From positions 1 through 64,000 of IMG/VR virus record IMGVR_UViG_3300009194_000008: 64,000 nt of DNA, one strand, 5' to 3'. The translations under genes and the position numbers were made by a program. Of the stretch, positions 7,801 through 26,801 are shown piece after piece (position 1 is the first letter of the stretch; each line of letters opens with the position of its first letter). The DNA comes from a virus. Under the pieces are notes generated by a model. It had not been told where the DNA came from. It saw only the letters and a program-made list of their open reading frames with translations, and searched no databases.

Positions 7801-7813
7801 CAACGCATAACAC

Positions 7814-8195: not shown

Positions 8196-8210
8196 CTGAG
8201 GAGGTGTATC

Positions 8211-8621: not shown

Positions 8622-8661
8622 TCAGCCAACTAAAAAGAAAGAATCATAAAAGGAAACTGTC

Positions 8662-9270: not shown

Positions 9271-9364
9271 GGAATCTCCCATGCCCACCACTCCGAAACA
9301 TGTCCTGATTGGTGTTCTCCAGAACACCTTAATTGCTCACCATCAGAAACTGAAGGAATCCACC

Positions 9365-10266: not shown

Positions 10267-10360
10267 TTGCAACTGAAAGAAAAGTCAGATCTATATCACT
10301 GGGATGAGGAAACCCACCAACGGAGTTTCCCATCCCTAAATTGAAAGAATGGAGACTATC

Positions 10361-10570: not shown

Positions 10571-10580
10571 ACGGTCATGA

Positions 10581-10609
10581 AGGGACGGTCAACCACCGTC
10601 CCTTTCTTG
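10581..10609 (+). terminator. Rho-independent terminator
   Basis: AGGGACGGT pairs with ACCGTCCCT in a perfect 9-bp stem, followed by TTCTTG. It closes the unit ending at 10570. Confidence 0.7.
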
Positions 10610-10648
10610 TAGTAAAAAAAAACGAAAGAACTAATAAAGGTGAAACCC

Positions 10649-10795
10649 ATGTTCCGCAAAAAGTCCGAAAAGACCGAGAACGAAAAATCCTGGGAAGACG
10701 ACACTTGCCGCGATCTGAAAAGAATGACCGTGGCGTTGACCGTTATCGCGGTGGGTGCTTTCGCGGCCTCCTTCGTGATCTCTTCCAAGCAGTAA
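10649..10795 (+). CDS. 48-aa single-pass membrane peptide
   Basis: This short frame starts at an ATG preceded by AAAGGTG at good spacing. Its product starts with a charged segment of 25 residues (many Lys and Glu) and ends with one hydrophobic helix (about residues 26-44) and a short SSKQ tail. It sits between two other membrane peptides in the same orientation, which supports it as a real gene. Function unknown. Confidence 0.5.
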   Translation: MFRKKSEKTENEKSWEDDTCRDLKRMTVALTVIAVGAFAASFVISSKQ

Positions 10796-10839
10796 ACCAC
10801 ATCCATATAAACTGAAAGAATTCAAAAAGGAATATCCTC

Positions 10840-11220
10840 ATGAAAACCGTCAAACCGACCGCCAAGTACGACTTCCACAACGCCGCTGTTTCCGAACTGC
10901 TGAAGTTCCGCACCCCCGGAGAATACCGCCTGACGATCGGCGAGATCGAACATCGCTTCGTGGTGGATGAAGAAAGGCAAGTGATCATCTGCGTCGATAA
11001 CGACAAACGTCCCCACGCCGATGTGGTGATCGCCGTCCTCGAGATCTTCGGGCTGGCCGTTGTCCCGGTGAACATCAAGTCGCTGCGTACCGTCGAGTAT
11101 CGTCGCCGGAAGGACACCAGCCGCCTCACCCGGACCGTTGCAGGCGTGGCCCTGGGTGTGGGTATCATCGCTGGTGGTGTCGCCGTCGGAATGCATGTCC
11201 GCGGCACCGCGACCGAGTGA
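10840..11220 (+). CDS. Small protein with C-terminal membrane helix, 126 aa
   Basis: AAAAAGGAATATCCTC precedes the ATG. The first 90 residues form a compact, soluble alpha/beta-looking domain; residues about 97-120 are a Gly/Val/Ala-rich hydrophobic helix (AGVALGVGIIAGGVAVG), then RGTATE. A tail-anchored topology is likely, with the domain in the cytoplasm. The helix is similar in style to the peptide at 10361. No family recognised. A strong terminator follows immediately. Confidence 0.62.
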   Translation: MKTVKPTAKYDFHNAAVSELLKFRTPGEYRLTIGEIEHRFVVDEERQVIICVDNDKRPHADVVIAVLEIFGLAVVPVNIKSLRTVEYRRRKDTSRLTRTVAGVALGVGIIAGGVAVGMHVRGTATE

Positions 11221-11223
11221 GAG

Positions 11224-11250
11224 TAAGGGGCTTCGGCCCCTTATTTTTTT
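11224..11250 (+). terminator. Strong Rho-independent terminator
   Basis: TAAGGGGC and GCCCCTTA form an 8-bp stem closed by a UUCG tetraloop and followed by seven T. This is the most canonical terminator in the window. Confidence 0.85.
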
Positions 11251-11253
11251 GTT

Positions 11254-11276
11254 ACAATACGCATAGCCTGTATTGT
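11254..11276 (+). promoter_or_regulatory. Inverted repeat in the leader of the 11307 gene
   Basis: ACAATAC and GTATTGT form a perfect 7-bp inverted repeat with a 9-base spacer, directly after a strong terminator and before the 11307 gene. It could be an operator or part of a promoter (TTGTTA and TATTGT lie 16 bases apart here). The promoter reading is weak. Confidence 0.3.
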
Positions 11277-11306
11277 GTAGTTGACCGACAAAAGAGGATG
11301 CCCCCT

Positions 11307-11921
11307 ATGTCTAATGTGGTAAACTTCGCGGAACGGAAAGCCCAGCGAGATACCCAACGCGCGATCGATGAGAATATCGAGAACGTAAAGAACGTGGTGA
11401 TTCCTGAAATCCAGGCCGCGATGGAAGAACAAACAGGGGTGGCGGAACAGACCAGTCGTTGTGCGATCGAGGTTCTCCACGGTTTCTTGAGTATCTCACC
11501 CCACATGCTTCCGCTGTTGGTCTTGGAGATCAATCACCACCTGGTCCATTTTTCAATACTTTCCAGAACGGGTGCGGTTATCGGTCAGCCGGAAGAACGT
11601 GCCTTTCTCACAGTTGCCCTGGAGGAATACGACGATACATCTCCCAAGACCTTTTCCTTGGCCCGTCCCGATGAACTCTGCAACCAGGTGCATTTCGAAC
11701 ACGGCTGGCACCTCGGTAAACCCATGATCCAACCGATCGGCTACCTGTGGAGTTTCCTGATGGTAGACAACTGGGTGTTTACGCACCATGAGGTCGATCC
11801 GGTTGCCATGGCGATCACCCAACAGTGGTGTCGTGAAGGGTATCGACTCACCACCACGATGAACCATGACCGCCTGGAGACCACAATCCGGGAATGGGAG
11901 TACCCACTCAATGATCATTGA
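11307..11921 (+). CDS. Hypothetical protein, 204 aa
   Basis: The ATG at 11307 is preceded by AGAGGA; upstream in-frame codons would lie in the terminator. The N-terminal 40 residues are charged and helical, and the rest is of mixed fold with several His and Trp. No motif is recognised. It overlaps the macrodomain gene by 11 bases, so the two are probably translated together, which hints at a shared role in host interaction. Function unknown. Confidence 0.68.
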   Translation: MSNVVNFAERKAQRDTQRAIDENIENVKNVVIPEIQAAMEEQTGVAEQTSRCAIEVLHGFLSISPHMLPLLVLEINHHLVHFSILSRTGAVIGQPEERAFLTVALEEYDDTSPKTFSLARPDELCNQVHFEHGWHLGKPMIQPIGYLWSFLMVDNWVFTHHEVDPVAMAITQQWCREGYRLTTTMNHDRLETTIREWEYPLNDH

Positions 11922-12363
11922 AGAACGCACTGGGAACATCTTTACCTCAGGGTGTCAGACCATCACGGTCACCACCAACTGTGTCGGGGTCATGGGGAAA
12001 GGCATTGCCCTGGAAGCCAAGCAACGTTTCCCCGAGGTGGTTGAACCCTATCAACGGGCCTGTAAATCGGGAGACCATGCAATTGGTAAACCTGTAATGT
12101 ACCAAACGGGACATGACAACTGGCTGTTGTTGTTTCCCACCAAACAGCATTGGCGTAATGCCAGTGAACTCGGATGGATCGAGGAGGGACTGAAGGCCCT
12201 GCGCCGGGACGCCCTCCTTTACCCCTTCAACCAAATCCGTCAACTAGCAATGGCACCGTTAGGGTGTGGTAACGGTGGGCTGGATTACATCCGTGACGTC
12301 CGCCCGCTGATCTACCGCTACCTTGACCCTTGGCCGGTTGAGGTCATTTTGTACAAGTCGTAA
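11911..12363 (+). CDS. DarG-type macrodomain protein
   Basis: The 150-residue product is a complete macrodomain of the DarG/TARG1-like type. Visible landmarks are GNIF near the N-terminus, TNCVGVMGKGIALEAK (about residues 21-36) for ADP-ribose binding, FPTKQHWRNASELGWI in the middle and PLGCGNGGLDY near the C-terminus. These match DarG, the antitoxin that removes ADP-ribose which DarT adds to thymidine in DNA. No DarT toxin gene is adjacent. A phage-borne, stand-alone copy is therefore best read as an enzyme that reverses DarT-based host defence, or that handles ADP-ribosylated DNA or metabolites; that role is inference. The start at 11911 overlaps the preceding gene and leaves a standard N-terminus. 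Confidence 0.88.
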   Translation: MIIEERTGNIFTSGCQTITVTTNCVGVMGKGIALEAKQRFPEVVEPYQRACKSGDHAIGKPVMYQTGHDNWLLLFPTKQHWRNASELGWIEEGLKALRRDALLYPFNQIRQLAMAPLGCGNGGLDYIRDVRPLIYRYLDPWPVEVILYKS

Positions 12364-12377
12364 ACAGGAGCAAGAAC

Positions 12378-12671
12378 ATGTATACCACTGTATCAGACCA
12401 AAAGCACGAGTGGAAAATCCTGGTAGGTGCAACACTGTTGATGTTGCTTCTGTGGGGACTGAGTACCATCCCGACAGTGGTTGCCCAATCACGGGTGACG
12501 CCGGACGTCGGAGACGCCATTACCGTCTTTGTTGAAACGTATGATCTCACCGATCAGGAACGCCAGGAACTCACCGACGTGGTGGCGGACTGGTTGACAC
12601 GTAACCCCTCGCTGGGTGACCAGCCGATATATGTCTACCAGCTGATGAAACAACACCAAAACGTTCAGTAA
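12378..12671 (+). CDS. Membrane-anchored or exported small protein, 97 aa
   Basis: ACAGGAGCAAGAAC precedes the ATG. Residues about 12-36 form one hydrophobic segment (LVGATLLMLLLWGLSTIPTVV) ending in VAQS, which could be an uncleaved anchor or a signal peptide cut after AQ. The remaining 60 residues are acidic and helical and would face the periplasm. No family recognised. It is followed by a hairpin/TATG element. Confidence 0.62.
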   Translation: MYTTVSDQKHEWKILVGATLLMLLLWGLSTIPTVVAQSRVTPDVGDAITVFVETYDLTDQERQELTDVVADWLTRNPSLGDQPIYVYQLMKQHQNVQ

Positions 12672-12681
12672 CTATATATTG

Positions 12682-12712
12682 TCCCTCCCGGATGGGAGGG
12701 ATCGTTTATGTC
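12682..12712 (+). terminator. Hairpin plus TTTATGTC element
   Basis: TCCCTCCC and GGGAGGGA form an 8-bp stem with a GGAT loop, followed by TCGTTTATGTC. It ends the macrodomain unit and may start the next one from the TATG. Confidence 0.65.
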
Positions 12713-12733
12713 ATAACCAAAGAGGAAAGAAAA

Positions 12734-13390
12734 ATGTACAGTAGTCCACTCGATCACCTTACGATTACCGATGGTAAACTCGACAATATCACTAAAGACT
12801 ACGTTGACTTTGTGTTTCGTGATGAACATTACCATAGCCTGACGGTAGACGAAGCGAAACAAGAGGAGTCGATATTTGGTGTTGACCTATCCACTGATCT
12901 CGCCGAAAAGAACCCTTGGTATTGTGTGTGTTTTACCGAGGCCCGTCACCATCCCAGCTATACGCCACGGAGGATATATTGGGTTGTGGTAACGAATGAC
13001 CAACTCATAGAAGTTCGCCACTATCCAGAGCAGACCTGCGGTGGATTAATTACTCGGTCACCTTTTGTAGAGTATTGTCGGTTCCCACTCGTGATAAATA
13101 TTGGTGAAAATATTACCTGGTTAAGCAAATGTAGCTGTGATGAGGACGGGGATGAGATTATCATTCCTGAGGAACTTCACCCATACCACTTACTCTTGAA
13201 AGATTATGTACCCGATGAAGTGGTGGCGTATTATGCCCCTAAACTATTTGAGGAGTTAGACGCTTATTTGCTTATGACATGCGAAACCCCCCGGGACGGT
13301 ACGCATTATGGTGACTTGTTTAATGTAACAATGCCGATCGTTACCGACAACCCTGATATCGCACTTAAGAAAAGCAAGCATCAAAATTAA
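12734..13390 (+). CDS. Hypothetical protein, 218 aa (AT-richer)
   Basis: I choose the ATG at 12734 because AGAGGAAAG lies just upstream; an in-frame upstream codon at 12692 sits in the hairpin element. The 218-residue product is acidic with many Tyr and Asp. Two Cys pairs (CSC near the middle and others) match no known site. By eye the gene uses more A and T at third positions than its neighbours, which may mean more recent acquisition. Function unknown. Confidence 0.65.
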   Translation: MYSSPLDHLTITDGKLDNITKDYVDFVFRDEHYHSLTVDEAKQEESIFGVDLSTDLAEKNPWYCVCFTEARHHPSYTPRRIYWVVVTNDQLIEVRHYPEQTCGGLITRSPFVEYCRFPLVINIGENITWLSKCSCDEDGDEIIIPEELHPYHLLLKDYVPDEVVAYYAPKLFEELDAYLLMTCETPRDGTHYGDLFNVTMPIVTDNPDIALKKSKHQN

Positions 13391-13458
13391 ACTATGCGAA
13401 ACACCTTAATACTATGTCGTGGTGCTTCAGGTTACCTGTCACGTCACCGCGCCATGAC

Positions 13459-13489
13459 GGTCCTCCCTTCGGGGAGGACCTTTTATGCC
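13459..13489 (+). terminator. Hairpin plus TTTTATGCC element
   Basis: GGTCCTCCC and GGGAGGACC form a perfect 9-bp stem with a UUCG loop, followed by TTTTATGCC. The next gene starts 20 bases later, so this looks like terminator and promoter in one. Confidence 0.75.
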
Positions 13490-13509
13490 ACATACCAAAG
13501 GAACCACGG

Positions 13510-13884
13510 ATGACCAAGTTGTTCGTTCACTTAGCCAACGGTGAGGGACAACGTTATTTCGATAACATCATTGAGTATCTAAGCACGGCGTACACCGAAG
13601 AACTCAAACAGCTATATACCGCCGCTGCGGACTATGCCTATTGGCGATTAAAGCTTGAGGGAGGAGAGCGAGCCGAAGAACACCAATGGTTAGTTACTGA
13701 AATAACGTCAGAGGGTGTCCCTAATGTGCCTGAAGCCGTGTTATTCACGGAATGGGAATGCCTCTACTACGTCCTCTATCCGGTATTGATAAGCCACCCG
13801 ATGCACCTGATTGCCTGCATTAGTCCGGCTACTGATGATGATCTTAACCTAATTGGGTTTTTCATCATCTTGCATCCAAATTAA
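13510..13884 (+). CDS. Hypothetical protein, 124 aa
   Basis: The ATG at 13510 is preceded by AAAGGAA and follows a hairpin/TATG element. The 124-residue product is acidic and helical in its first half, with a hydrophobic C-terminal stretch that is not long enough for a sure membrane helix. It is 12 bases upstream of the dihydrofolate reductase gene and likely cotranscribed. Function unknown. Confidence 0.6.
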   Translation: MTKLFVHLANGEGQRYFDNIIEYLSTAYTEELKQLYTAAADYAYWRLKLEGGERAEEHQWLVTEITSEGVPNVPEAVLFTEWECLYYVLYPVLISHPMHLIACISPATDDDLNLIGFFIILHPN

Positions 13885-13896
13885 CAGGAGAACACC

Positions 13897-14457
13897 ATGA
13901 CCGTTAAAGCCGACGACATTAACATCACCCTGATCGCCGCCATGAACTACCGACGAGTACTGGGGGATGGTGAGAAACTCCTCTGGAAAAACCGTGAGGA
14001 CCTCAACCACTTCAAGGAGATGACTGAGGGCCATGTGCTGGTGATGGGGCGTCGGACCTATGACTCACTGCCCTTCGAGGGGGGTTTCCCCAACCGCTGG
14101 AATATCGTGATCAGCCGCACACCGTTGTTTGCTGACACGACAACACTGCGTAACGCCGGTGGGGTAATCAATGCACTGGCATTGGCACGTGACATGGCGG
14201 CTGATCTGTCTAACCGGTTTGACAAGACCCATAAGGTGTTCTGTGTCGGAGGTGGTGAGGTTTATCGTGCGGCACTGGAACATGCCGACCGCATCCTCTT
14301 AACTACCATCCCCAATGATCTCGAAGGGAACGTAACCTTCCCGGTGTTTGAGCAAGACTCTTCTTGGGTACTGGAAAAACAGGAGGTCGGAGATACCCGT
14401 CAAGACGGTAGTGCCAACATCTACACTGTCTGGGAGCGCAATCAAAACACCGCCTAG
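13897..14457 (+). CDS. Dihydrofolate reductase
   Basis: The 186-residue product has the DHFR signature in order: ITLIAAMNYRRVLGDGEKLLW near the N-terminus with the substrate-binding loop, VLVMGRRTYDSLP for the NADPH-binding helix, NIVISR for the next strand and VFCVGGGEVYRAAL for the Gly-Gly cofactor motif. It reduces dihydrofolate to tetrahydrofolate with NADPH in the cytoplasm, which supports thymidylate synthesis during phage DNA replication. Length is slightly above the bacterial norm of about 160. CAGGAG lies upstream. No thymidylate synthase gene is in the window. Confidence 0.87.
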   Translation: MTVKADDINITLIAAMNYRRVLGDGEKLLWKNREDLNHFKEMTEGHVLVMGRRTYDSLPFEGGFPNRWNIVISRTPLFADTTTLRNAGGVINALALARDMAADLSNRFDKTHKVFCVGGGEVYRAALEHADRILLTTIPNDLEGNVTFPVFEQDSSWVLEKQEVGDTRQDGSANIYTVWERNQNTA

Positions 14458-14479
14458 GTCCTTTACGTAAGGATCTTTG
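14457..14479 (+). terminator. Weak terminator hairpin
   Basis: GGTCCTT pairs with AAGGATC (one G-U) around TACGT, followed by TTTG and CTTATACC. It follows the dihydrofolate reductase stop codon. Confidence 0.45.
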
Positions 14480-14505
14480 CTTATACCGTCATTGGAGATA
14501 ACCCC

Positions 14506-15147
14506 ATGTTTAGCGTCTGTAATTTTAAACACCAAGAATTGCAAATCGATACCGACGGCGATACCCCCCGTATCGCCAACATGTCTGCTGCCGTAGCCCA
14601 CTCCATGCTGTCTGACAGTTTGGAAGAGGCTCCAGTAGATCATGAGATCATATGTGGAATAGCCACTCCGCATTTGGGGTCGGCACTGCTGGTTGGTGAC
14701 GATGACCCTGACTGGATCTGCATGCGGGTGAAGGAAGAGTACCGTGAGGCGAATAGCACCGAGTGGTATGTGTTCACCTCCACCCGTGTTCGCAATATTC
14801 AGTATTTCCATAGCCAGGAGTTCCCCTCCATCGGTGGACGTCAAGGGGTCATTGTGGTCCATGACTACCCGTTAGTCCTCCCAACCGCCAAATACCACGA
14901 GTGGTTGAGAAGCCTGAAACCGAATAATCCGGAACTGTCCACCAAGACAATCCCGGAAGGGGAACATGACTACCTGGTTCTCTGGACACTGGAAGACAAT
15001 TACCTGATGTACGTGTCAGAGGCTCCGCTGGAAGATAACTGGGTGGAAAGCATGGTGGTGACGTCCAAGTTGAGCGATTCCACCGAACTCAACCTACCGA
15101 TCGAGGCGTTTATCTCTATCGACGAGGACGAGGTATTCGACGACTGA
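14506..15147 (+). CDS. Hypothetical protein, 213 aa
   Basis: The ATG follows TTGGAGATAACCCC. The 213-residue product is acidic, beta-rich in appearance and ends in an Asp/Glu-rich tail (SIDEDEVFDD). No signal peptide, membrane helix or known motif is visible. It is bounded by a weak hairpin upstream and a strong terminator downstream, so it may be its own unit. Function unknown. Confidence 0.65.
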   Translation: MFSVCNFKHQELQIDTDGDTPRIANMSAAVAHSMLSDSLEEAPVDHEIICGIATPHLGSALLVGDDDPDWICMRVKEEYREANSTEWYVFTSTRVRNIQYFHSQEFPSIGGRQGVIVVHDYPLVLPTAKYHEWLRSLKPNNPELSTKTIPEGEHDYLVLWTLEDNYLMYVSEAPLEDNWVESMVVTSKLSDSTELNLPIEAFISIDEDEVFDD

Positions 15148-15156
15148 CCAACCGGT

Positions 15157-15182
15157 ACCCTCTCCTACGGGAGAGGGTTTTT
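15157..15182 (+). terminator. Strong Rho-independent terminator
   Basis: ACCCTCTCC and GGAGAGGGT form a perfect 9-bp stem with a TACG loop, followed by five T. A second T-tract and ATTATGGTATGG follow at about 15192-15212, possibly promoter sequence for the next gene. Confidence 0.8.
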
Positions 15183-15256
15183 CTCCGCGTCTTTTTTTTT
15201 TGATTATGGTATGGCTAGTAACCGTACTAGAAAAGGACGTATAACAGGAGAATTCC

Positions 15257-15748
15257 ATGCGGACGATGTTTCGTCGATTATTCGGTCACCCTTCGGTGGT
15301 TGATCCCCAACGTGAACAGTTTACCAAAACCTCACATGCCTTTCTTACTGACAGCGATCGTGCCGAGGGAATCAAACGCCTATCTCAGATTTACGAGCCC
15401 TTCAAGGTTATCCAACGCTTCCTGGCCTTATGTGTGGTGTTAACCTATCTCGCCGTCTGGATCATCTGCGTGGCCCTGTTCGTTTTCTACATTGGGCTGT
15501 TTATCATTGATGCCATCCGCAGTGACCTGTCTTTGATGACGCAGGTCAATGACCTGAAGAACAACATTGATGAGGTGTTCTTCTTGAACGCCATTAAAGA
15601 GCTGGCTTCACTCAATCAAGATACGTTGGGACTTCCCGCAGGTCTCGTACTGTCCCTGTATTTCGGTGGGGGCTTTGTTGAAGGGGTAATTGAACGTTTC
15701 CCTAATATGAAAGGTAGCACTAAAGGGACTCCGCCCACTCAGCCATAA
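15257..15748 (+). CDS. Membrane protein with central hydrophobic hairpin
   Basis: ACAGGAGAATTCC precedes the ATG. The 163-residue product has a basic soluble N-terminus of about 50 residues, then a long hydrophobic stretch (about residues 52-85) able to form one or two membrane helices, an amphipathic region, and a weaker hydrophobic stretch near residues 128-145. It could be a holin or another inner-membrane protein; the better-placed holin candidate is at 52779. It converges with minus-strand genes and ends in a bidirectional hairpin. Confidence 0.6.
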   Translation: MRTMFRRLFGHPSVVDPQREQFTKTSHAFLTDSDRAEGIKRLSQIYEPFKVIQRFLALCVVLTYLAVWIICVALFVFYIGLFIIDAIRSDLSLMTQVNDLKNNIDEVFFLNAIKELASLNQDTLGLPAGLVLSLYFGGGFVEGVIERFPNMKGSTKGTPPTQP

Positions 15749-15751
15749 CAC

Positions 15752-15790
15752 GACATAATCCCTCCCCGTGCTGGGGAGGGACGTTATGTC
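15752..15790. terminator. Bidirectional hairpin flanked by TTATGTC on both strands
   Basis: CCCTCCCC and GGGGAGGG form an 8-bp stem between convergent genes. GACATAA lies at 15752-15758 and TTATGTC at 15784-15790, so both strands read hairpin then TTATGTC. It overlaps the stop of the 15789 gene. Confidence 0.7.
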
Positions 15791-15887
15791 ATTTCTGTGT
15801 AGCAATCACAATCCCGGCGGCCACAACCAATCCGATCTGGACACCGACCAACAGTACCTCGAGTTGACGGAATTTAGCGATATTCAT
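15789..15887 (-). CDS. 32-aa membrane peptide
   Basis: The ATG at 15887 lies one base past the stop of the upstream gene (TGATATG), with AAAGGGG 6 bases before it. The product is a short polar start followed by one long hydrophobic helix (about residues 11-30) and ends QK. Close coupling to the membrane protein at 15889 supports it as a real gene. Function unknown; small phage membrane peptides often act in lysis or exclusion, but nothing here proves either. Confidence 0.45.
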   Translation of the reverse strand: MNIAKFRQLEVLLVGVQIGLVVAAGIVIATQK

Positions 15888-15888
15888 A

Positions 15889-16191
15889 TCAGGCCCCTTT
15901 AGTGGTAAAGCCATAAGCATCCGAGAAAGCATCCTTGAGCCACTCGGGGATAGCGAAGCGATGACAACGAAGAAGTTCCATCAACGCATCGAAATATTCA
16001 CTCTCGGTGGTGGGAAGGGGGATCTCCAGTTTACGGAGCTCTTCAAATACCCGCTCACGAATAGCCGCGGTATCGAGTGTTTCAACGGGCACATGACGAC
16101 GCAGTAAGTAACCCACGACTGCCATTCCAATCCCGGCTCCCACTACCAGTGCCGCAGTGCCATAACGCTGTTTCTTTTGCTTGTTGTGCAT
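15889..16191 (-). CDS. Single-pass membrane protein, 100 aa
   Basis: A very strong AGGAGGTG site precedes the ATG. Residues about 11-30 form a Gly/Ala/Val-rich membrane helix after a basic start, then RRH as a positive stop, then a soluble helical domain of about 65 residues. By the positive-inside rule the topology is ambiguous because basic residues flank both sides. It follows a hairpin/TATG element and precedes the 32-residue peptide in one unit. Function unknown. Confidence 0.62.
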   Translation of the reverse strand: MHNKQKKQRYGTAALVVGAGIGMAVVGYLLRRHVPVETLDTAAIRERVFEELRKLEIPLPTTESEYFDALMELLRCHRFAIPEWLKDAFSDAYGFTTKGA

Positions 16192-16271
16192 AATGCACCT
16201 CCTGGAGGTTATAGTGCTATATAGTTAACCAGCCGGGTATTTTGTAAAGTCACCAAAAAGAAACCCCAATG

Positions 16272-16298
16272 ACATAACCCCTCCCCGGAGGGAGGGAT
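16272..16298 (-). terminator. Hairpin plus TTATGTC element
   Basis: On the minus strand a 7-bp stem (CCCTCCC with GGGAGGG) is followed by GGTTATGTC. It separates the helicase unit from the small membrane proteins. Confidence 0.65.
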
Positions 16299-16308
16299 CG
16301 TAACGATA

Positions 16309-16758
16309 CTAGATTTGAACGAGAGTTATCTTGGAGATATCGGTTCCGGGGGTAATTTTCAAGTGGTCCTTACCATCCATAGAGAAGACGAAAAGGCTCA
16401 AGGTGGGATCGTCGCTATCAGGGTCCCCAATGTTCAGTTCGGTGTCATCGCGGGTGGCTTGGGGTAACTGTGAGTGAAGGGCGTTCACCCAGACTGCGAC
16501 ACTACCCCGGATATAGACATCAACGTACAGATCATCCCGGTGGTGGGGTTTCTGCTGTAACCACTCATTAACCACCTCAACGGTTTTATTGATCAGGGGG
16601 TGTGTGGGCTCTATGCCATCCATTTCGTAAAGCTCCCAACGTTGCTCATCAAGAACCTGGGCAAACTCATCGCCCAGGGGTTCTTGGTGGGTAACTAACC
16701 GCTTACACAGCTCACCCATGGCTTCTTTTAATTTCGCATCCTCTACAGTGCCCACCAT
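16309..16758 (-). CDS. Hypothetical protein downstream of helicase, 149 aa
   Basis: This gene overlaps the end of the helicase gene by 16 bases, so it is translated from the same mRNA. The 149-residue product is acidic and soluble, with a helical first half and a beta-looking second half, and no motif I recognise. Coupling to the helicase suggests a replication accessory role; this is inference from position only. Confidence 0.62.
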   Translation of the reverse strand: MVGTVEDAKLKEAMGELCKRLVTHQEPLGDEFAQVLDEQRWELYEMDGIEPTHPLINKTVEVVNEWLQQKPHHRDDLYVDVYIRGSVAVWVNALHSQLPQATRDDTELNIGDPDSDDPTLSLFVFSMDGKDHLKITPGTDISKITLVQI

Positions 16759-18281
16759 GCTTCCTCCTGATCACTACCCAGCTGACCACCACCCGGCATG
16801 GCCAATGTCATCTCTTCATCGCGATCCACATCCCACGGAATGGTACCGATCGGCTTGAACGGCAACACAAAGTATTGGTCTTTTTCCTGGGTGACCACGT
16901 TACGGTGCTTACCCCGTTGCACGGTCAGGAAGGATTCGCCATTGATCACGACCTTATGGATGAACAGTTCCAGATCAGGCTCCTGACCCAGACGCCGGCA
17001 ACCATCGTAGTAACCCTTGTTGGCCACCACCTTAACAAAGTCTTCCACGTTCTCACGAGTCAACTGCAGCGCGTCGGACGAGAGCTGGTGAGGGGTGATG
17101 CAGGTAATGCCACGCGGAGCGGTGTAGTTACGTATCTGACGGAACAGCATCCGAATATCATCGCCAGCCACCTTAGCCTCAAGACCCGCCTTAGAGGCCA
17201 TGGCCAGGTAGTCGATGAACAACGCGACAATCTCATAGCCGTCGGCATACAGACCGTCGAGTTGGGATTTGATAGAGGCACAGGTAAACTCACTGGGATC
17301 AAAGCGATCCATGCGAATTTCAAAGCCGGTTTCGCGTAACCGTTCTGAAACGTAGGCCGCTGCCTCGTTGACGTTGACTTCCGATTCAATCACCGGCTCG
17401 CCAGTGTCGTTCTCTTTGAGGTACTTATAGATCCACAACATGTTGTCAGGGATCTCGTTCTCAAAGGTAATAAAGTATAGCAGGGGTTTACGGGTCTTAT
17501 CGCGCAGGAACGGTTTGTTGAACAGCGCCGCGTGAGTGAACAGTGAGAGCATAAACCCAGATTTGAAGCTATGCTGAAGACCCCCGACCGTTACAAACTC
17601 ACCACGCTTCAGTGCACCAACCTTACCCAGTGCTCGGTTGAGGCCCTTCCACCCCATCTGTAGGGCACCTTCGGTGGACATGGTGTTCTTGACGTTGGTG
17701 AATTGTTTGGCGAGTTCTCCCGCTTCCCCAAAATCGATACTACCCATTTGTGCTGGGTGACGCTGTGTGGTACGGGCTTCCACCAGGGGCTCCAGGCGTG
17801 CCCCCATACTACTGACTTCTTCGACGATGTCATGGATCTGCCCCCGTTTGAACACCATGCGGTGATGGGTGTCCTTGAGGATGGACATGATCTTTTCGTC
17901 GGTCAGGTGTTTGGTCAGGTTATTGCGATAGGACTGAATGGTCTTGACAATGGACTTGACGTCTTCGTACTTTTCCATCAGCGCAGTCATTAACGCTTCG
18001 TACAGAAAGTTCTCTTCGCGACATGCCACTTGAATCTGTTGGAGGACTTCGGTCTCACTCGGGAAATTATCCGCCGTCCGTCCGTTCAACCAGATCACTG
18101 AACTGCGTAATTCCAGAAACGTTTGACGACTGTGATCGTGGTCGATGGTCCCCTCGGGGATCGGTAGCGAATCAATGATGTTCGCCACTAGTTCATTGGA
18201 TGGCGACGTGGCCACCCCTTCACGGTGTTCGAGGCAAAGTAACGTAGCACAGTTGATTAACAGTTGCTTGGGGGAGAACAT
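16743..18281 (-). CDS. DnaB-like replicative helicase
   Basis: The 512-residue product has a helical N-terminal region and a RecA-like C-terminal half. Walker A is visible as GGLQHSFKS (residues 233-241) after RGEFVTV, the form seen in DnaB/gp4-type helicases. FENE near residue 275 would carry the catalytic Glu. Walker B is IVALFIDYLA (about 345-355), followed by RQIRNYT and ITCITPHQLS, which match helicase motifs 3 and 4 in style. It should unwind DNA at the phage replication fork using ATP. Length is normal for the family. The gene lies on the opposite strand from the flanking genes and diverges from 18409. Confidence 0.75.
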   Translation of the reverse strand: MFSPKQLLINCATLLCLEHREGVATSPSNELVANIIDSLPIPEGTIDHDHSRQTFLELRSSVIWLNGRTADNFPSETEVLQQIQVACREENFLYEALMTALMEKYEDVKSIVKTIQSYRNNLTKHLTDEKIMSILKDTHHRMVFKRGQIHDIVEEVSSMGARLEPLVEARTTQRHPAQMGSIDFGEAGELAKQFTNVKNTMSTEGALQMGWKGLNRALGKVGALKRGEFVTVGGLQHSFKSGFMLSLFTHAALFNKPFLRDKTRKPLLYFITFENEIPDNMLWIYKYLKENDTGEPVIESEVNVNEAAAYVSERLRETGFEIRMDRFDPSEFTCASIKSQLDGLYADGYEIVALFIDYLAMASKAGLEAKVAGDDIRMLFRQIRNYTAPRGITCITPHQLSSDALQLTRENVEDFVKVVANKGYYDGCRRLGQEPDLELFIHKVVINGESFLTVQRGKHRNVVTQEKDQYFVLPFKPIGTIPWDVDRDEEMTLAMPGGGQLGSDQEEAWWAL

Positions 18282-18340
18282 GAAAGCGTATCCTTACCTG
18301 GGTTGTCTCTCGTGGCGTAGGATATTTAACCTGGGTAGTT

Positions 18341-18362
18341 TTTCACCCTCTATGTTTATGAC
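18341..18362 (+). promoter_or_regulatory. TATG-containing leader between divergent genes
   Basis: The 127-base gap between the helicase (-) and the 18409 gene (+) holds CTCTATGTTTATGAC, after a small GGGT/ACCC hairpin. It resembles the TATG part of the recurrent element and could start the capsid transcript. Confidence 0.3.
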
Positions 18363-18408
18363 ACACGAATAACCGCGTGATAGCCCTACCATTTTATAGG
18401 ATACCCGC

Positions 18409-18936
18409 ATGCCGAAACTGCTGGTGGTTCCCCAGGACGTCGTTCGTATGATGGACGATGAGGGGATTCCGTTGTCAACGTTGGGCGATATTGATCGTAT
18501 GAGTGACGCGTTATCCGCGCATGATATGGCAGAGATCCATTTAGCGCATAAGGCGTTCCCTTTCGAATTCGATCAATCCCTCCAGATTGAGCCGGCCCGA
18601 TCACCCCTGGTCGAACTGGCAGAAGTCAAAGCACACGAGGAATTGTACCATCGTGTGAATGAACGTATACAGACGTTAAAGCTTCAGGACGAAAGTTCTA
18701 CTGAACGCTTTACTCCTGTGTACACGCTTAATCCTGTAGACGAAACGCTCTGGGTCGTAGTGCTGCAGAGGCAGGGCTCACCGGAAGGCGATCCTTACCA
18801 AGCGTTGCTCTCAGCTAATCGGGGTTTCTTTGATTCCCTGATGGCGCAGGCTTTACACCTCCACCCGTTCGAACGAGTGTGTAGCACTAACCTCTTCACC
18901 TATTATGTAGGAGCACTGCCCGTTAAAGCGGCGTAG
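18409..18936 (+). CDS. Hypothetical protein upstream of capsid, 175 aa
   Basis: The ATG at 18409 follows TAGGATACCCGC. The 175-residue product is soluble and of mixed fold with no recognised motif. It lies directly upstream of the major capsid gene, with 69 bases between them including a TATG motif. A scaffold or head-assembly role is possible from position but not visible in the sequence. Confidence 0.65.
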   Translation: MPKLLVVPQDVVRMMDDEGIPLSTLGDIDRMSDALSAHDMAEIHLAHKAFPFEFDQSLQIEPARSPLVELAEVKAHEELYHRVNERIQTLKLQDESSTERFTPVYTLNPVDETLWVVVLQRQGSPEGDPYQALLSANRGFFDSLMAQALHLHPFERVCSTNLFTYYVGALPVKAA

Positions 18937-18946
18937 TTTGTACCTA

Positions 18947-18960
18947 GATAGTATGTTGAA
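18947..18960 (+). promoter_or_regulatory. Possible late promoter of the capsid gene (TATG)
   Basis: AGATAGTATGTTGA lies in the short gap before the major capsid gene. phiKZ late promoters are reported to carry a TATG core; the match here is short, so the call is tentative. Confidence 0.3.
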
Positions 18961-19005
18961 GTGCGTTACCTTAAACCCTTCCTACGCGTAAGGAAAAAAC
19001 GACTC

Positions 19006-21270
19006 ATGAATACCAACCTGAAGAAGCTGTTTGCATCACGTCACGATGCCATGAAGAAGGACTTCGATCTGGGCGGCTTCGTCGCCTCCATGGAATCGGC
19101 CCAAGACACCGTCGGCAGTGTGCTGGCTGGTGGTAAGGAACTGGCCTCCCGTGTCTCCGTCGAATCTTTCGGCGACCTGGGCATGGAAGAAGCTCAGACC
19201 TGTCAAGAGCTCTACGCTTCCATGGAAGAAGCCCTGGAGCATGAAGGTTTCGAATCCTTCAACGCCAAGCGCGGTGATGACGCTTCCCGTATCGGTGAGA
19301 ACCAGATCATGGCAGCCACCCTGGCTTCCATCGCCGGTAACGAAGAAGTTCGCTACAAGCGCGCCATGCGCGGCATGACCACCACCCCGCAGTCCAACAA
19401 CCCGAACGTCATCTCCATCGCTCCGATGATGGATGGCCCGCACGGTCAGATGCCGGTGCTCTCCGAAGGCCAAGGCCTGGAGAACTACAACGAGAAGTCC
19501 CAGCGTGACTTCCGCGTCATCTCCGTCGCCTACAACCTGGCCGCTGCTCGTCAGGATGCCTTCGGCGAAGCCATCTACCCGACCGTCGTGGTGAACCCGA
19601 CTGAAGGTGGTGTGACCCAGAACCTGACCTACGCTGCCGTCCTCAAGGACGTCTTCCATGAAGTCACCGGCGCGCTGTTCGACACCCGTGAAGTCAACAT
19701 GGTCGAAGCCTTCCGTGACCCGTCCGTCCTGGAAGATGCCAGCACCAAGCTGGTTCCGGTCGTCGACGATGCCGACAAGAACGCTCGCGTGTTCGTGGAC
19801 CCCGCCATCATCGCTCCGGTCTCCATCGACCTCGAGAAAGGCGGTACCGTCAACACCGCTCCGCTGAAGATCGGTGAGAAGTTCGACCTGATCGGCGTGT
19901 CCAACCGTCAGCAGCTGATCGCTGGCAACATGCTGGACGTGTCCGACACCATCGACCCGGCCATGCGTCTGAAGAACCTGTACGTCCGTACCGGTGGCGC
20001 CTCCCCGAAGGTCATCAAGTTCACTGTCGAGCGCATGCCGACCGCAGTGTTCCAGCCGAGCCTGACCAACGATACCCGTCTGGCCCAGCTGAACTTCACC
20101 ACCGAAGACCTGGTGCTGTCAGCCTCTACCAAGGCCATCGACGGTTCTACCAACACCGCTATCGACGAGCTGGCCAACCGTAACTGGACCATGCGCGTCT
20201 CTGTCAGCGCTTCCGGTAACGTCTCCCTGTCCAAGGGTGATGCCTGGATCCACGCCACCCCGGTGGTGATCGAGAAGCTGCTCGACGAAGATGGTACCGC
20301 CCTGGACAAGTCCGCTGGCGATGCCGCTACCGTTGTTGACGCGTTCGGCGACATGACCGTTGTCGGTTACGACCTCGACGCCCGCTTCACCAACACCAAC
20401 CGTCGTGAGCGCGGTCAGCTGGTGCAGACCCGTACTCTGCAGTTCCGCTACCCGATCCCGATGCACAGCCCGATCACCCTGCCGATGTCCACCATGGACG
20501 AGTCTGGTCCGGGCGATGTGGTCAAGACCCTGACCGTGGCCACCAACATCCGTAACAGCAACAACGCTGTGACTCGCCTGCTGAACTACCTGGCTCAGCT
20601 GCGTGAAGTGGTGACCTCTGGTTACGACCGTCCGAAGTTCGGTGCTGTCGAAGGTGCCCTGTCCGCCATGATCCGCCCGACCTACCGGTCCGGCACCCTG
20701 GATCTGGAAGCAGCCATCGATACCGTCCGCTCCAAGGACCGTTGGGAAGACGTCTGCCAGACCATCCTCAACACCATCAAGAGCATGCTGTTCCCGGCAT
20801 ACCGCGACTCCAACATCGAGGCGGCCTTCCAGACCGTCACCGGCAACGCTGATGAGCGTCCCAAGTTCATCATCGCCACCGATAAGGAAATCGCGCATTA
20901 CCTGATGCTCAAAGGTGATGACCGGACTCTGGGTTCTTACCTGAAGTATGATATCGTCTCCACCAACAACGAGCGGTTCGATGGCAAGATCGTCATCATC
21001 CCGACTCGCGAGAACCCGGTCGAGAACGACATCCTGAACTTCGGTCAGTTCTACTACGTCCCGACCATCGTGGCCGATCTCCCGATCAGCCGCAACGGTC
21101 AGACCTCGCGTGAAATCGCTGCCGTGCCGTTCAACCTGCACGTCAACAACATCCCGTTCGCTATCGAGCTGGACGTTGTGGGTCTGGACCGCGTCATGGG
21201 TTCTTCTCAGTACAACAGCCTCCCGGGCTTCCAGACTGAGCAAGTGACCATCGAGCAGACCGCTCCCTAA
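19006..21270 (+). CDS. Major capsid protein (phiKZ gp120-like)
   Basis: I choose the ATG at 19006 (MNTNLKKLFA), preceded by TAAGGAAA; it gives 754 residues, close to the phiKZ major head protein. The N-terminal 110 residues are helical and charged, like the propeptide region of phiKZ-type capsid proteins, and the rest is a long alpha/beta body rich in Val, Thr and Asp. Codon usage is extremely biased to C or G at the third position, as expected for the most abundant virion protein. Sites of the S/A/G-x-E type used by phiKZ prohead proteases occur at residues 51-53 (SVE) and 157-159 (GLE). A strong terminator follows. The family call rests on my recall of phiKZ-like capsids. Confidence 0.8.
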   Translation: MNTNLKKLFASRHDAMKKDFDLGGFVASMESAQDTVGSVLAGGKELASRVSVESFGDLGMEEAQTCQELYASMEEALEHEGFESFNAKRGDDASRIGENQIMAATLASIAGNEEVRYKRAMRGMTTTPQSNNPNVISIAPMMDGPHGQMPVLSEGQGLENYNEKSQRDFRVISVAYNLAAARQDAFGEAIYPTVVVNPTEGGVTQNLTYAAVLKDVFHEVTGALFDTREVNMVEAFRDPSVLEDASTKLVPVVDDADKNARVFVDPAIIAPVSIDLEKGGTVNTAPLKIGEKFDLIGVSNRQQLIAGNMLDVSDTIDPAMRLKNLYVRTGGASPKVIKFTVERMPTAVFQPSLTNDTRLAQLNFTTEDLVLSASTKAIDGSTNTAIDELANRNWTMRVSVSASGNVSLSKGDAWIHATPVVIEKLLDEDGTALDKSAGDAATVVDAFGDMTVVGYDLDARFTNTNRRERGQLVQTRTLQFRYPIPMHSPITLPMSTMDESGPGDVVKTLTVATNIRNSNNAVTRLLNYLAQLREVVTSGYDRPKFGAVEGALSAMIRPTYRSGTLDLEAAIDTVRSKDRWEDVCQTILNTIKSMLFPAYRDSNIEAAFQTVTGNADERPKFIIATDKEIAHYLMLKGDDRTLGSYLKYDIVSTNNERFDGKIVIIPTRENPVENDILNFGQFYYVPTIVADLPISRNGQTSREIAAVPFNLHVNNIPFAIELDVVGLDRVMGSSQYNSLPGFQTEQVTIEQTAP

Positions 21271-21304
21271 CGGTTAGCCGTTAGCAGGAGTAGTTAGCTC
21301 ACGT

Positions 21305-21336
21305 AGAGCCCCGCCTCCGGGCGGGGCTCTATGCCG
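21305..21336 (+). terminator. Strong terminator plus TATGCC after the capsid gene
   Basis: AGAGCCCCGCC and GGCGGGGCTCT form a perfect 11-bp stem with a TCCG loop, followed by ATGCCG. It should stop most capsid transcripts before the lyase gene. Confidence 0.8.
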
Positions 21337-21403
21337 TCCGGAAGGAATACCCGCCAGGCTAATCATTTGCAGTATGTCTACATCCACTAACACCAAGGAC
21401 GTT

Positions 21404-22576
21404 ATGAAAGCCACAATTTCGTTAACCAGTGATCAAGGACAGACATTGGACGAGAAGACTGTTACCCTTGAAGTCCCGGCGCATGATGCGCTGGAGTATG
21501 CCGAAGTGGTACCTGAGGTGGTGAGTCGATGGAACGGTGGGGCCGTTATTGAACTGACCGTACATAACCACATGGTAACCCCCATACGTAACCCTCAAGT
21601 TAGCTTTTCCCTTAATGGGTCGCTGGCCGAGGTGTGGAACGGCAACATTGTGGTGAGTCAAGCACCCTATCATCAACTGCGGCTCGATGAAGAGATCATC
21701 GCCACCGGTGACAGTGGTCGGTGTCGAGTCAAGGTTTATTTAACCAACGATGTATTGCCGGAACAGTATCGGGTGTTGACTACCCTACCCGGTCCGAGTA
21801 CAGCGCCAGTGTCTCCTGACAACGTAGATAGTAACAACGACCTTGACGACTACCATCTTCTGACAACACTGATTCCTGACTACGATGAATTTGATCGTGT
21901 CATGGAAGTGCGGGACGTGTCGTCTGTCTGGGGTGAAGAGAACACTCACATTATCCCCGGTACGACAACACCGGATCGGGAACGTGGATTCCGGACAACG
22001 GTTAAAGAAGGCACCTCCTCCAATGGTGACAATGGTGTTGGGGGCACGGGCTTCGATTTCAATTTCCAAGGGTATACGACTGCTATCCTGGCGTACCGCA
22101 TTCGCTTTGAAGCGGGGTTTGATTTCGTTAAGGGTGGCAAGCTCCCCGGGTTAGCTGGCGGCGATACCCCCAGCGGCGGTCAATCCGCCGAGAACGGATT
22201 CTCGATGCGACTGATGTGGCGCGAAGAGGGCTACGGTGAAGTCTATCATTACGGACCGTATCGTGAGAACCACTATGGTGATAGCATCGGTCGGGGTAAC
22301 TTCCGCTTCGAAGCAGGTCGTTGGATGAACATCATGCAGCAGATCGTGCTCAACACGATCGGTCCTGACGGTACCCCCAATGCCGATGGGATACTGCGAC
22401 TGTGGGTTGACGGGAAGCTTGTGATTGAATCCACTTCCATGGTCTATCGCAACAAGCCCGAGGTATTGATCAGTGCCTTGATGTACACCATCTTCTTTGG
22501 TGGTACTGGGGAAGAGTGGCGGACACCGAGGGATCAGTACATCGATACCAGCAATTACGAGATTTACGTACTGTAA
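21404..22576 (+). CDS. PL14 polysaccharide (alginate/glucuronan) lyase with CBM2-like domain
   Basis: I choose the ATG at 21404 because AAGGA lies 5 bases upstream; the ATG at 21374 overlaps a TATGTC motif. Residues about 30-115 look like a CBM2-type carbohydrate-binding domain (W-x-G-G near 43, paired strands, IIATGDSGR). Residues about 150-390 match polysaccharide lyase family 14. Residues that I recall as catalytic in the Chlorella-virus enzyme vAL-1 are present with matching spacing: K246 in KGGKLPGL, S267 and R269 in GFSMRLMW, Y281 and Y283 in VYHY. The enzyme should cleave uronic-acid polymers such as alginate or glucuronan by beta-elimination. As a virion part it would degrade host capsule or biofilm; as a free enzyme it could spread into the matrix. 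No signal peptide is visible. Confidence 0.8.
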   Translation: MKATISLTSDQGQTLDEKTVTLEVPAHDALEYAEVVPEVVSRWNGGAVIELTVHNHMVTPIRNPQVSFSLNGSLAEVWNGNIVVSQAPYHQLRLDEEIIATGDSGRCRVKVYLTNDVLPEQYRVLTTLPGPSTAPVSPDNVDSNNDLDDYHLLTTLIPDYDEFDRVMEVRDVSSVWGEENTHIIPGTTTPDRERGFRTTVKEGTSSNGDNGVGGTGFDFNFQGYTTAILAYRIRFEAGFDFVKGGKLPGLAGGDTPSGGQSAENGFSMRLMWREEGYGEVYHYGPYRENHYGDSIGRGNFRFEAGRWMNIMQQIVLNTIGPDGTPNADGILRLWVDGKLVIESTSMVYRNKPEVLISALMYTIFFGGTGEEWRTPRDQYIDTSNYEIYVL

Positions 22577-22649: not shown

Positions 22650-23423
22650 ATGCTGACCACAGCACTTCGATGGAATGACAATGACCGACATTTCGGTCCT
22701 TTTTTATTTTCTCGCCGTCAGCCCGATGGTTTTACTGCCACTGGACTTGTACTTGAGTCCAATCCCGATTATGACAATGACGATAAAGCCCGTTGTTTCC
22801 TACGGTGTCATCTTGTTGGTCATACCGTAATCGTCTGGCTTCCCACACTCTTCAAGCCATACCGAGAAACGTTGCCAAGAGAGCACAGTGCACTAACCGA
22901 ATCCGAGCGTTATGATGAATACCCGAGGGAATTCGGGGTAACGCTAAACCGGGCGTTTCTGCAGGTATTTTACGGGCGTCAAACTGACGACAGTAGTACC
23001 ACCCGGAGCTGGTCGGCGTTCCTGCCTTGGACAGAAACCCGGTTAGTCAAACAGAACTTGATCGACACCCAGGGAAATGAAATCGCGAACGACGGCGCAC
23101 TACTGGCCGATGATCAATATATCCAAAACTTCACGTTTGAGGATACCGACGGTGCGGTCATCCATGCACGGACGTATTTACGCAGTCTCGAATACCGGCG
23201 CGGGGACGGTTGGTTCAAGTGGTTGGGTTACGTGACACCAATGCCCCCGGTTCGTCGGATACTGGACATCGAGTACAGTGTCGAAGTGGGGAGCGGAAAA
23301 AACGATTGGAAGGGAGGCGTGTTGGGGTGTAGCATCGAAGCGCACCCAAGAGAACTCCATGAGTCCGCGTTTATCCGACATTGTAAGAAACGTGGTCTGA
23401 CGTACCCAATCCCCGCAACGTAA
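22650..23423 (+). CDS. Conserved-style phage hypothetical protein, 257 aa
   Basis: ACAGGAAACGTAC precedes the ATG. The 257-residue product is soluble and rich in Arg, Trp and Asp. Its C-terminal half (RTYLRSLEYRRGDGWFKWLG, then DIEYSVEVGSGKNDWKGG and HESAFIRHCKKRGL) recalls uncharacterised proteins found in many tailed phages, but I cannot name a function. It is the last protein gene before the tRNA/HNH region. Confidence 0.65.
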   Translation: MLTTALRWNDNDRHFGPFLFSRRQPDGFTATGLVLESNPDYDNDDKARCFLRCHLVGHTVIVWLPTLFKPYRETLPREHSALTESERYDEYPREFGVTLNRAFLQVFYGRQTDDSSTTRSWSAFLPWTETRLVKQNLIDTQGNEIANDGALLADDQYIQNFTFEDTDGAVIHARTYLRSLEYRRGDGWFKWLGYVTPMPPVRRILDIEYSVEVGSGKNDWKGGVLGCSIEAHPRELHESAFIRHCKKRGLTYPIPAT

Positions 23424-23502: not shown

Positions 23503-23991
23503 ATGCTGACCATGCCTGATTGGCAGAAAGTCTATGGACCATACACCCGTAAGGATGGTAGAAAGCATGTTGTTGTTGTGACTAAAGATCCTGCCACTGG
23601 TGCAACGGTTTCCAGACAGACGATCTCGTACCCGAAGTACGTGGTTGAAGGCGTGTTGCTTGAAACATTGCCCGACGACATGACGGTTGACCACATTGAC
23701 CGCAACTTTAAAAACGACTGTCTTTCAAACTACCGGGTAGTTGATAAACCAACACATTCCCGTGAAGATGCAAGACACCGTCGTAAAGATTTAGTTGCGT
23801 GCATTGAATGTGGCGTTAACTTCATTCCGTCAAGTAATCAAGTTAACAATTGGAGTCGCTCTAAGGCAGGTCCTTTCTGCAGTAGGAGTTGTACTGGTCG
23901 TTATGGCCAAAGAGTGCAAACTACAGGAAACCGAGTAAAGCGCAAGGTTGTTGACGTGGAGTATTACTATCTAGACAAACAACTTAGATGA
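23503..23991 (+). CDS. HNH homing endonuclease with zinc ribbon
   Basis: The 162-residue product has the HNH core VDHIDRNFKNDCLSNYRVV (residues 62-80), with the DH pair, the N-rich turn and the final strand in the usual spacing. A second region has C100, C103, C126 and C130, a likely zinc ribbon for DNA binding. It lies between a truncated tRNA-Leu start and an intact tRNA-Leu, 6 bases before the latter. Free-standing HNH genes often target and interrupt tRNA or other conserved genes. It would cut a tRNA-Leu-bearing allele lacking the insert; the target is inference. Confidence 0.82.
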   Translation: MLTMPDWQKVYGPYTRKDGRKHVVVVTKDPATGATVSRQTISYPKYVVEGVLLETLPDDMTVDHIDRNFKNDCLSNYRVVDKPTHSREDARHRRKDLVACIECGVNFIPSSNQVNNWSRSKAGPFCSRSCTGRYGQRVQTTGNRVKRKVVDVEYYYLDKQLR

Positions 23992-23997
23992 AATTTA

Positions 23998-24084
23998 GGG
24001 GCGTTGGCGGAATTGTTATACGCACGTCACTTAAAATGACGCGACCGGAAGGTCATGTGGGTTAGAGTCCCACACGCCCCACCA
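23998..24084 (+). tRNA. tRNA-Leu (anticodon UAA)
   Basis: An 87-base cloverleaf is complete. Acceptor GGGGCGT pairs with ACGCCCC, the D-arm is of leucine type, and the anticodon arm GTCAC-TTAAAAT-GTGAC-like stem (GTCA/TGAC) carries TAA. A long variable arm CGACCGGAAGGTC-type hairpin and a T-arm with GGGTTAGAGTCCC follow. The 3' CCA is encoded. It reads UUA and related leucine codons. It follows the HNH gene by 6 bases and precedes the structured non-coding region. Confidence 0.93.
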
Positions 24085-25601: not shown

Positions 25602-26801
25602 ATGGCTCGACAACTCGATCACATCTTTGCCAGCCTAGTCTCAGAGGTGTTACCGGGTCCCGTGCCACTCCCCCAAGGGCGACGCCTACGCAGCTCGTTT
25701 CATCTTGAGTTCACTAACACCATGCGGGTTCCGGTCTTCTGGCGCAATGCGCTGGGGATTGTGGTGAGTGAGCCCAGTAGTTCATCCACTTCCGGTGGGG
25801 AATACTTTTACATCAGAATTGAGTATGAGTTCGAACCCGGAGTAAAGATTGACGCACGTGAACTATTGGATGAGCTAGAGCTGCCATCGAACCACGCTGA
25901 GTTAGGCGGCATTGTTAAAGCCCTGGAGGCACTCGAGAAAGATCCTAACTGGTATCAGCAACGTAAGTTTTCGTATCAGCTGGGGATCTCTCGTGAGGAC
26001 CTGGAAAACGCTGGAGGCGTGGCATATCTCAACGATGTTGATCTAGTGGTCGGATTTGAGCAGCACCGCGATGTTGCTCTCCATCCGTTCTCACCACCCG
26101 GTCAGCGTCAACGCCTTAGCGAAGTGCTGGACCCACAACAGGGGTTTCAGCAGCGCTTTGTCTTGATTGATAATTCGGGCATCATTGGCCCACGTTGGGT
26201 CAACACGGGTTATGGTACCTACGAGATAACACCGGTCGCCGATCCCCAGTTACGGGACGGGGTTTATGTTTCCGTATGCCATCACCGCCTGTCCGAACCA
26301 AAAACCACTCATTATCCCATGGAGGAAGCTGAGAAAGCCTTGGGGCTTTACCGCAATCGGGCCGAAGCCGAAGCGTTTGGGAGCCCCGAAGAGCGTTTCA
26401 AGGCGGAACTCAAAGAAACTGAACAACAGATTGCTCGCGACAAGGTCGAGCTGGGGAGACTGAAACAAGAGGTAGACCGAGAGAAACACGAAGCAGAAAC
26501 AGAACGACGTCGTGAAGACGAGCGGCGAGCGCAGGAACAAGCTGAAGCCGATGCCCGCAACAGACGAGAAAAAGAAGCCTTGGAGCGTGAACGCGATCGA
26601 CTGACGCTCGAAAAGGAACGGATGGACTTTGAACGACAGACGTTCCAGGAGCGACAGAAGTTTGAATACGACATGCGTTCTCGTGATCGGAAAGACCAAT
26701 CCGATACCCACAAGGCCGCCTTGGATTATGCCAAGGCCATTCTCGGCATCGTCAGCATAGGGCTATCACTCTACGCAGTGATCAAGAAAAACCAAAAGTA
26801 G
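25602..26801 (+). CDS. Coiled-coil protein with C-terminal membrane helix, 399 aa
   Basis: The 399-residue product has a globular N-terminal region of about 245 residues, then a long charged coiled coil (about residues 255-365) dominated by Glu, Arg, Lys and Gln heptads, then one hydrophobic helix (about 372-393) ending KKNQK. It is 8 bases upstream of the RNA polymerase subunit gene. The architecture suits a membrane-tethered or virion scaffold protein, but I recognise no family. Confidence 0.7.
   Translation: MARQLDHIFASLVSEVLPGPVPLPQGRRLRSSFHLEFTNTMRVPVFWRNALGIVVSEPSSSSTSGGEYFYIRIEYEFEPGVKIDARELLDELELPSNHAELGGIVKALEALEKDPNWYQQRKFSYQLGISREDLENAGGVAYLNDVDLVVGFEQHRDVALHPFSPPGQRQRLSEVLDPQQGFQQRFVLIDNSGIIGPRWVNTGYGTYEITPVADPQLRDGVYVSVCHHRLSEPKTTHYPMEEAEKALGLYRNRAEAEAFGSPEERFKAELKETEQQIARDKVELGRLKQEVDREKHEAETERRREDERRAQEQAEADARNRREKEALERERDRLTLEKERMDFERQTFQERQKFEYDMRSRDRKDQSDTHKAALDYAKAILGIVSIGLSLYAVIKKNQK

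Follow-up and report, generated by a model that had tools for sequence, protein, structure and literature searches.

The stretch analysed here (the window) covers positions 1 to 64,000 of the IMG/VR virus record IMGVR_UViG_3300009194_000008, a fragment of 98,858 bases with a single PL14 polysaccharide lyase gene. The gene order around it, dnaB (on the - strand), gp119, capsid protein and, beyond a variable stretch, gp122, gp123, and gp124, agrees with that of phages phiKZ, Psa21, Phabio, and PhiPA3. The capsid protein is at most 57% identical to those of isolated phages, the nearest of which infect Pseudomonas, and 78 to 88% identical to those of seven sister contigs from IMG/VR. From this phiKZ-like gene content we infer a jumbo phage, the record itself being a fragment. 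The region around the lyase gene contains the following features:

18961..21270, + strand: phiKZ-type major capsid protein gene (PhiKZ_MCP; PF25620, E 2.6e-219)
21302..21333, + strand: terminator-like hairpin of 14 bp, 3' of the capsid gene (region z -4.95)
21404..22576, + strand: PL14-type polysaccharide lyase gene, 390 aa, without signal peptide (PF21294, E 8.5e-49)
22650..23423, + strand: Acb3-like CBASS inhibitor gene of the accessory slot, directly 3' of the lyase gene (PF25187, E 7e-50)
23503..23991, + strand: HNH endonuclease gene of the accessory slot (phrog_14913, E 8.7e-18)
23998..24084, + strand: tRNA-Leu(taa) of the accessory slot (ARAGORN; Rfam RF00005)
25602..26801, + strand: gp122-like gene, conserved right border of the slot (kept in contigs L008-L013)

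The capsid gene, whose true start is probably an ATG near 19006, is the immediate upstream neighbour of the lyase gene. The preliminary description had considered this adjacency notable, and the order itself holds. However, hairpins similar to the one between the two genes follow the capsid gene in contigs L008, L009, and L013 as well as in phiKZ, Psa21, and Phabio, and this conservation indicates that the lyase gene is probably a separate transcription unit. Moreover, the slot that holds it, bounded by the capsid gene and gp121/122, is accessory and variable in content; in the window it also contains the CBASS inhibitor, the endonuclease, and the tRNA. No PL14 match was found in the seven sister contigs (all of them fragments) or in four isolated phages. 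Since the slot is variable and the seven sisters lack the lyase, its position next to the capsid gene means little.

The end of the capsid gene itself differs among these phages. In eight Pseudomonas phiKZ-like phages (phiKZ, L003:8227-8310, and L004, L005, L006, and L082-L085) it ends in TGA, past which the frame stays open for 26 to 30 codons and encodes a conserved peptide (GKGxxRxLEDGTxRYLEDG...RxLE), the other frames not being conserved. In the sister contig L007 (10399-11013), the frame continues past the TGA into an Ig-like (Big_2) domain, while the gene ends in TAA in the window and in those sisters that have no extension. This pattern suggests readthrough of the capsid TGA, giving a minor extended capsid protein in these phages; one literature search returned nothing.

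Several other genes of the window deserve mention. A DarG-type macrodomain (DNA ADP-ribosyl glycohydrolase), possibly an anti-defence function, is encoded at 11866-12363, no DarT having been noticed next to it; L009 and L013 have genes like it close to their capsid region. On the - strand are a subtilisin-like (S8) serine protease (36812-38080), a 749 aa RCC1-repeat (beta-propeller) protein among probable tail-fibre genes (40771-43020), and two related peptidoglycan-binding muramidases less than 2.5 kb apart, an apparent duplication (48012-48869 and 50418-51284). Genes for a 2OG-Fe(II) oxygenase and two radical SAM proteins, also on the - strand (56517-61834), form a cluster of lower GC, unusual in a phage, that resembles a cassette for modifying a peptide or metabolite.

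A PL14 lyase with a CBM2-like N-terminal domain

The lyase open reading frame is complete and its frame intact. An alternative ATG lies upstream, at 21374; we prefer the start at 21404 because a Shine-Dalgarno-like AAGGA (21395-21399) precedes it by 4 nt. Compared with the homologues from a bacterial operon (see below), the N-terminus lacks a hydrophobic stretch. At 0.52, the GC content of the gene is ordinary for this phage, as is its GC3 of 0.58, and neither gives a sign of recent transfer. Within the gene we located the following:

21515..21715, + strand: CBM2-like N-terminal domain, residues 38-104 (PF00553, 23.8 bits; alignment; fold search)
21983..22549, + strand: PL14 catalytic domain with jelly-roll fold, residues 194-382
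22139..22141, + strand: codon of the catalytic lysine K246 (K in 32 of 32 aligned sequences)
22202..22210, + strand: codons of S267, M268, and R269, S and R being substrate/catalytic residues (32-row alignment)
22244..22252, + strand: codons of Y281, H282, and Y283, the tyrosines being catalytic (32-row alignment)

Residues 194-382 matched the Pfam family Polysacc_lyase_14 (PF21294) with 166.6 bits, the cut-off being 27; this is far above chance, although the score alone cannot tell PL14 from PL36. In a phmmer search against the PDB, the best match was AkAly30 (5gmt, PL14; 5e-20, 75 bits), followed by vAL-1 (2e-11, 47 bits) and the PL36 enzyme Aly36B (2e-10, 43 bits). The AlphaFold model, with a pLDDT of about 90 in the catalytic part and poor over roughly the first 165 residues, retrieved 5gmt first in Foldseek (E 8e-17), before Aly36B (E 4e-14), vAL-1, and the glucuronan lyase 2zzj. 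PHROGs, NCBIfam, and PADLOC gave no family assignment.

The residues that the preliminary description had listed as catalytic and intact are indeed present, positions 246, 267, 269, 281, and 283 being K, S, R, Y, and Y. In an alignment of 32 sequences (the phage lyase, AkAly30, vAL-1, and bacterial homologues), K and R do not vary and S, Y, and Y hardly do: S267 is replaced by T in two rows, and both tyrosine exceptions fall in one divergent phage contig. The motifs GGK, SMRLMW, and FFGG are likewise retained. The correspondence with vAL-1 was computed by alignment, and the roles given to the five residues are those that we take their vAL-1 counterparts to have. By family profile, fold, and catalytic residues, the phage protein is a member of PL14, as had been proposed.

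For the N-terminal domain, CBM2-like is the most fitting label. The PF00553 (CBM_2) match to residues 38-104 reached 23.8 bits, narrowly under the curated cut-off of 24, and three relatives of the same architecture gave weak matches as well (19.3, 22.7, and 14.4 bits). W43 and W78 align with CBM2 tryptophans, presumably those of the binding face, and are invariant in four relatives with the CBM2-PL14 architecture; a third tryptophan was not found. When the domain was modelled alone from two sequences, confidence was low (pLDDT 54), and the best fold matches of this model included the CBM2 structures 6qfs, 3ndy, 1exg, and 6f7e and the chitinase 6bt9, with E values of merely 2e-3 to 1e-1. Compared alone with the prophage proteins described below, the domain showed weak homology (11.6 bits, the best of 2000 shuffles reaching 6.1). 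The earlier proposal of a CBM2-like domain ahead of the catalytic part is thus backed by relatives and fold search, while the Pfam score stays below its threshold. CBM2 domains in general bind cellulose or chitin.

Halomonadaceae homologues and their probable exopolysaccharide operon

Scans of viral contigs with the single protein or with AkAly30 returned nothing; matches came only from alignments with Halomonadaceae sequences, and combining all five PL14/PL36 types gave too divergent an alignment for scanning. Among bacteria (one genome per species, 84,980 species), 35 loci were recovered, mostly from Halomonas, Billgrantia, and Vreelandella; the nearest were nearly all from Halomonadaceae, with at most 53% identity to the phage lyase. 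Of 201 Halomonadaceae genomes, 74 contained PL14, vs 10 of the 273 from the rest of the class.

The homologues belong to an operon with a UDP-glucose-type dehydrogenase (Ugd), a GT2 glycosyltransferase, a PilZ+HlyD protein, PL14, a PL5-like lyase (PF05426), and a Sel1/AlgK-like protein, in this order, and all 42 high-scoring-type Halomonadaceae loci share it within the stretch available. The operon resembles alginate synthase machinery and probably makes the exopolysaccharide (slime) of the Halomonadaceae themselves. Its dehydrogenase scores 544 bits to UDP-glucose dehydrogenases vs 219 bits to GDP-mannose dehydrogenase, which suggests a glucuronan-type polymer rather than alginate; by eye, none of the neighbouring open reading frames could be recognised as an epimerase or acetylase. 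In five loci from Billgrantia and Halomonas (L018, L030, L032, L037, and L039), a second PL14 gene lies just after the Sel1 gene, in some of them accompanied by a second PL5-like gene. The literature library searched contained no paper describing a lyase of this sort in a Halomonas jumbo phage, or a glucuronan operon in Halomonas.

Three Halomonadaceae genomes (G127, G029, and G135), each of which also holds an operon-type PL14, encode extra lyases of 423 to 432 aa outside the operon. None of these has a signal peptide, and their alignment to the phage protein spans about 370 residues and takes in the CBM2-like part. The copy in G029 matches the lyase of the IMG/VR contig L081 (50,661 bases) exactly and adjoins an integrase; further along, this prophage carries an O-like replication protein, a holin, an endolysin, and a terminase. 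In G127 an integrase lies about 3 kb from the lyase gene.

In the tree of the 32 sequences, the phage lyase, a long branch, fell among Halomonadaceae and Caenispirillum (support 99/99). With the prophage type added, it joined that type in one tree (support 88/87) but was not placed firmly in a second (54/77), for which grouping the phage lyase with the operon type gave an AU p of 0.49. An origin among Halomonadaceae-type lyases is supported by these phylogenies, which do not decide between the prophage and the operon type as its closest kin.

Proposed function and rival readings

We favour, with a confidence somewhat better than even, the reading that the protein is an accessory depolymerase, with CBM2-like and PL14 domains, that cleaves the polyuronate matrix of a Halomonadaceae-type host and is probably freed at lysis. 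The CBM2-like domain would bind carbohydrate, and the PL14 domain would use beta-elimination to cut a 1,4-linked polyuronate, its active site including K246, R269, and Y281/Y283; this mechanism is taken from the PL14 family. The nearest relatives sit in a Halomonas-type slime cluster, and for this reason the phage probably dissolves its host's matrix with the lyase; judging from these relatives only, it most likely infects Halomonadaceae. In a DNA search of window positions 1-20000 against 275 Halomonadaceae genomes, nothing resembling a CRISPR spacer was matched; the hits were a conserved folA stretch and short ones at chance level. The target would be the polymer, glucuronan- or alginate-like, that the host operon (Ugd - GT2 - PilZ/HlyD - PL14 - PL5-like - Sel1) makes. 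A uronic-acid polymer of the host matrix, alginate or glucuronan, had been suggested from the first inspection of the sequence: the operon context of the homologues agrees with a host-matrix target, while alginate is now less favoured than a glucuronan-type chain. Having no signal peptide, the lyase would probably stay in the cytoplasm until lysis sets it free, carriage on the virion being a less likely route. Its accessory position and the location of the prophage relative next to an integrase speak for lysis. Once released, it may degrade the matrix polymer of neighbouring cells. Soluble depolymerases freed at lysis are a known class, and alginate lyases of Pseudomonas and Azotobacter phages have been listed (PMC5380687).

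Alternatively, the lyase might be a virion depolymerase for entry, fixed to capsid or tail with the N-terminal beta domain as its anchor. The protein studied for virion wall degradation in chloroviruses contains a vAL-1-like domain (PMC8145301), two phage contigs (L050 and L051) carry PL14 among tail-region genes, and both the place of the gene next to the capsid gene and the missing signal peptide would fit. We nevertheless consider it unlikely, as the conserved hairpin separates the two genes, the slot is variable and empty of the lyase in the seven sisters, the prophage relative adjoins an integrase and not structural genes, and the N-terminal domain resembles a carbohydrate-binding module. 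Slot, hairpin, and prophage position together weaken any capsid-linked function.

It is quite improbable, in our judgement, that the target is a polymer foreign to the host, such as algal alginate or a plant or algal cell wall nearby, cut for diffusion or nutrition; the general affinity of CBM2 domains for cellulose or chitin would speak for this, yet the operon that houses the nearest homologues is biosynthetic rather than degradative. The same reading can draw on the characterised PL14 and PL36 enzymes, which act on alginate or glucuronan (PMC8618178; PMC8145301). An inactive remnant or mere binding protein, to which the long branch and the weakly CBM2-like N-terminus could point, is very hard to reconcile with an intact frame with its own Shine-Dalgarno-like site and with catalytic residues and motifs all kept, and we give it very little credence.

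Returning to the depolymerase that we favour, a broader scenario can be put forward tentatively, at somewhat less than even confidence. CBM2-PL14 proteins without signal peptide may form a phage-borne family, derived from the host's operon lyase and traded between lytic phiKZ-like and temperate Halomonadaceae phages. The target of these proteins would be a glucuronan-type matrix, so far undescribed, that the Ugd-GT2-PilZ/HlyD-PL14-PL5-Sel1 operon produces. The analysis would tie this uncultivated phiKZ-like phage to the Halomonadaceae as its probable host group and to a concrete host polymer, and makes it plausible that the phage employs a relative of a lyase that is kept in the biosynthesis operon of that polymer. 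This operon, which encodes a PilZ (c-di-GMP-type) domain along with two lyases, occurs in about a third of the sampled Halomonadaceae and predicts a polyuronate exopolysaccharide in biotechnologically relevant halophiles; the phage and prophage enzymes would be tools for identifying and cutting it.

Comparison with known systems

PL14 lyases are already known from algal viruses and from a Vibrio phage. The best solved match by both sequence and fold, AkAly30 of Aplysia kurodai (PDB 5gmt), is 35% identical in the alignment and has the same K/S/R/Y/Y residues, but it is a polyM lyase of a mollusc, an animal and not a phage, and leaves the CBM2-like domain unmatched. The chlorovirus enzyme vAL-1 (PDB 3a0n) shares the fold, the catalytic residues, a viral origin, and action on polyuronate, and is described as cleaving 1,4-linked glucuronic acid chains (PMC8145301); it differs in its identity of about 30%, its green-alga virus, and the absence of a CBM2-like domain from the matched region. 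Aly36B (6kcv/6kcw; PL36, a family described with Lys as both base and acid, PMC8618178) and the PL20 glucuronan lyase 2zzj belong to the same jelly-roll group and rank high by fold, but with lower scores, 2zzj being only 11% identical.

Among phages, PL14 is rare rather than unique, occurring also in vB_VmeM-32 and in contigs L050 and L051. The Vibrio phage protein VmeM32_00041 has a PL14 domain (79 bits) but differs in length (522 aa), in its signal-peptide-like start, in its T4-like phage (Straboviridae), and in an identity of 27% over 41% of the query. In L051 (66-1715), PL14 is fused behind a GH5-cellulase-like domain, among tail-region-like genes.

The operon PL14 of the Halomonadaceae (L015-L033 and L056-L071) is up to 55% identical over the catalytic domain, but has a signal-peptide-like start, no CBM2-like domain, and a biosynthetic setting. 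The prophage or island CBM2-PL14 proteins of the same family (L073, L074 = L081, and L075) have the architecture of the phage lyase, likewise without signal peptide, with 32 to 34% identity over about 370 residues, and differ in residing in a temperate phage or island, with an integrase adjoining (L074/L081) or about 3 kb away (L073).
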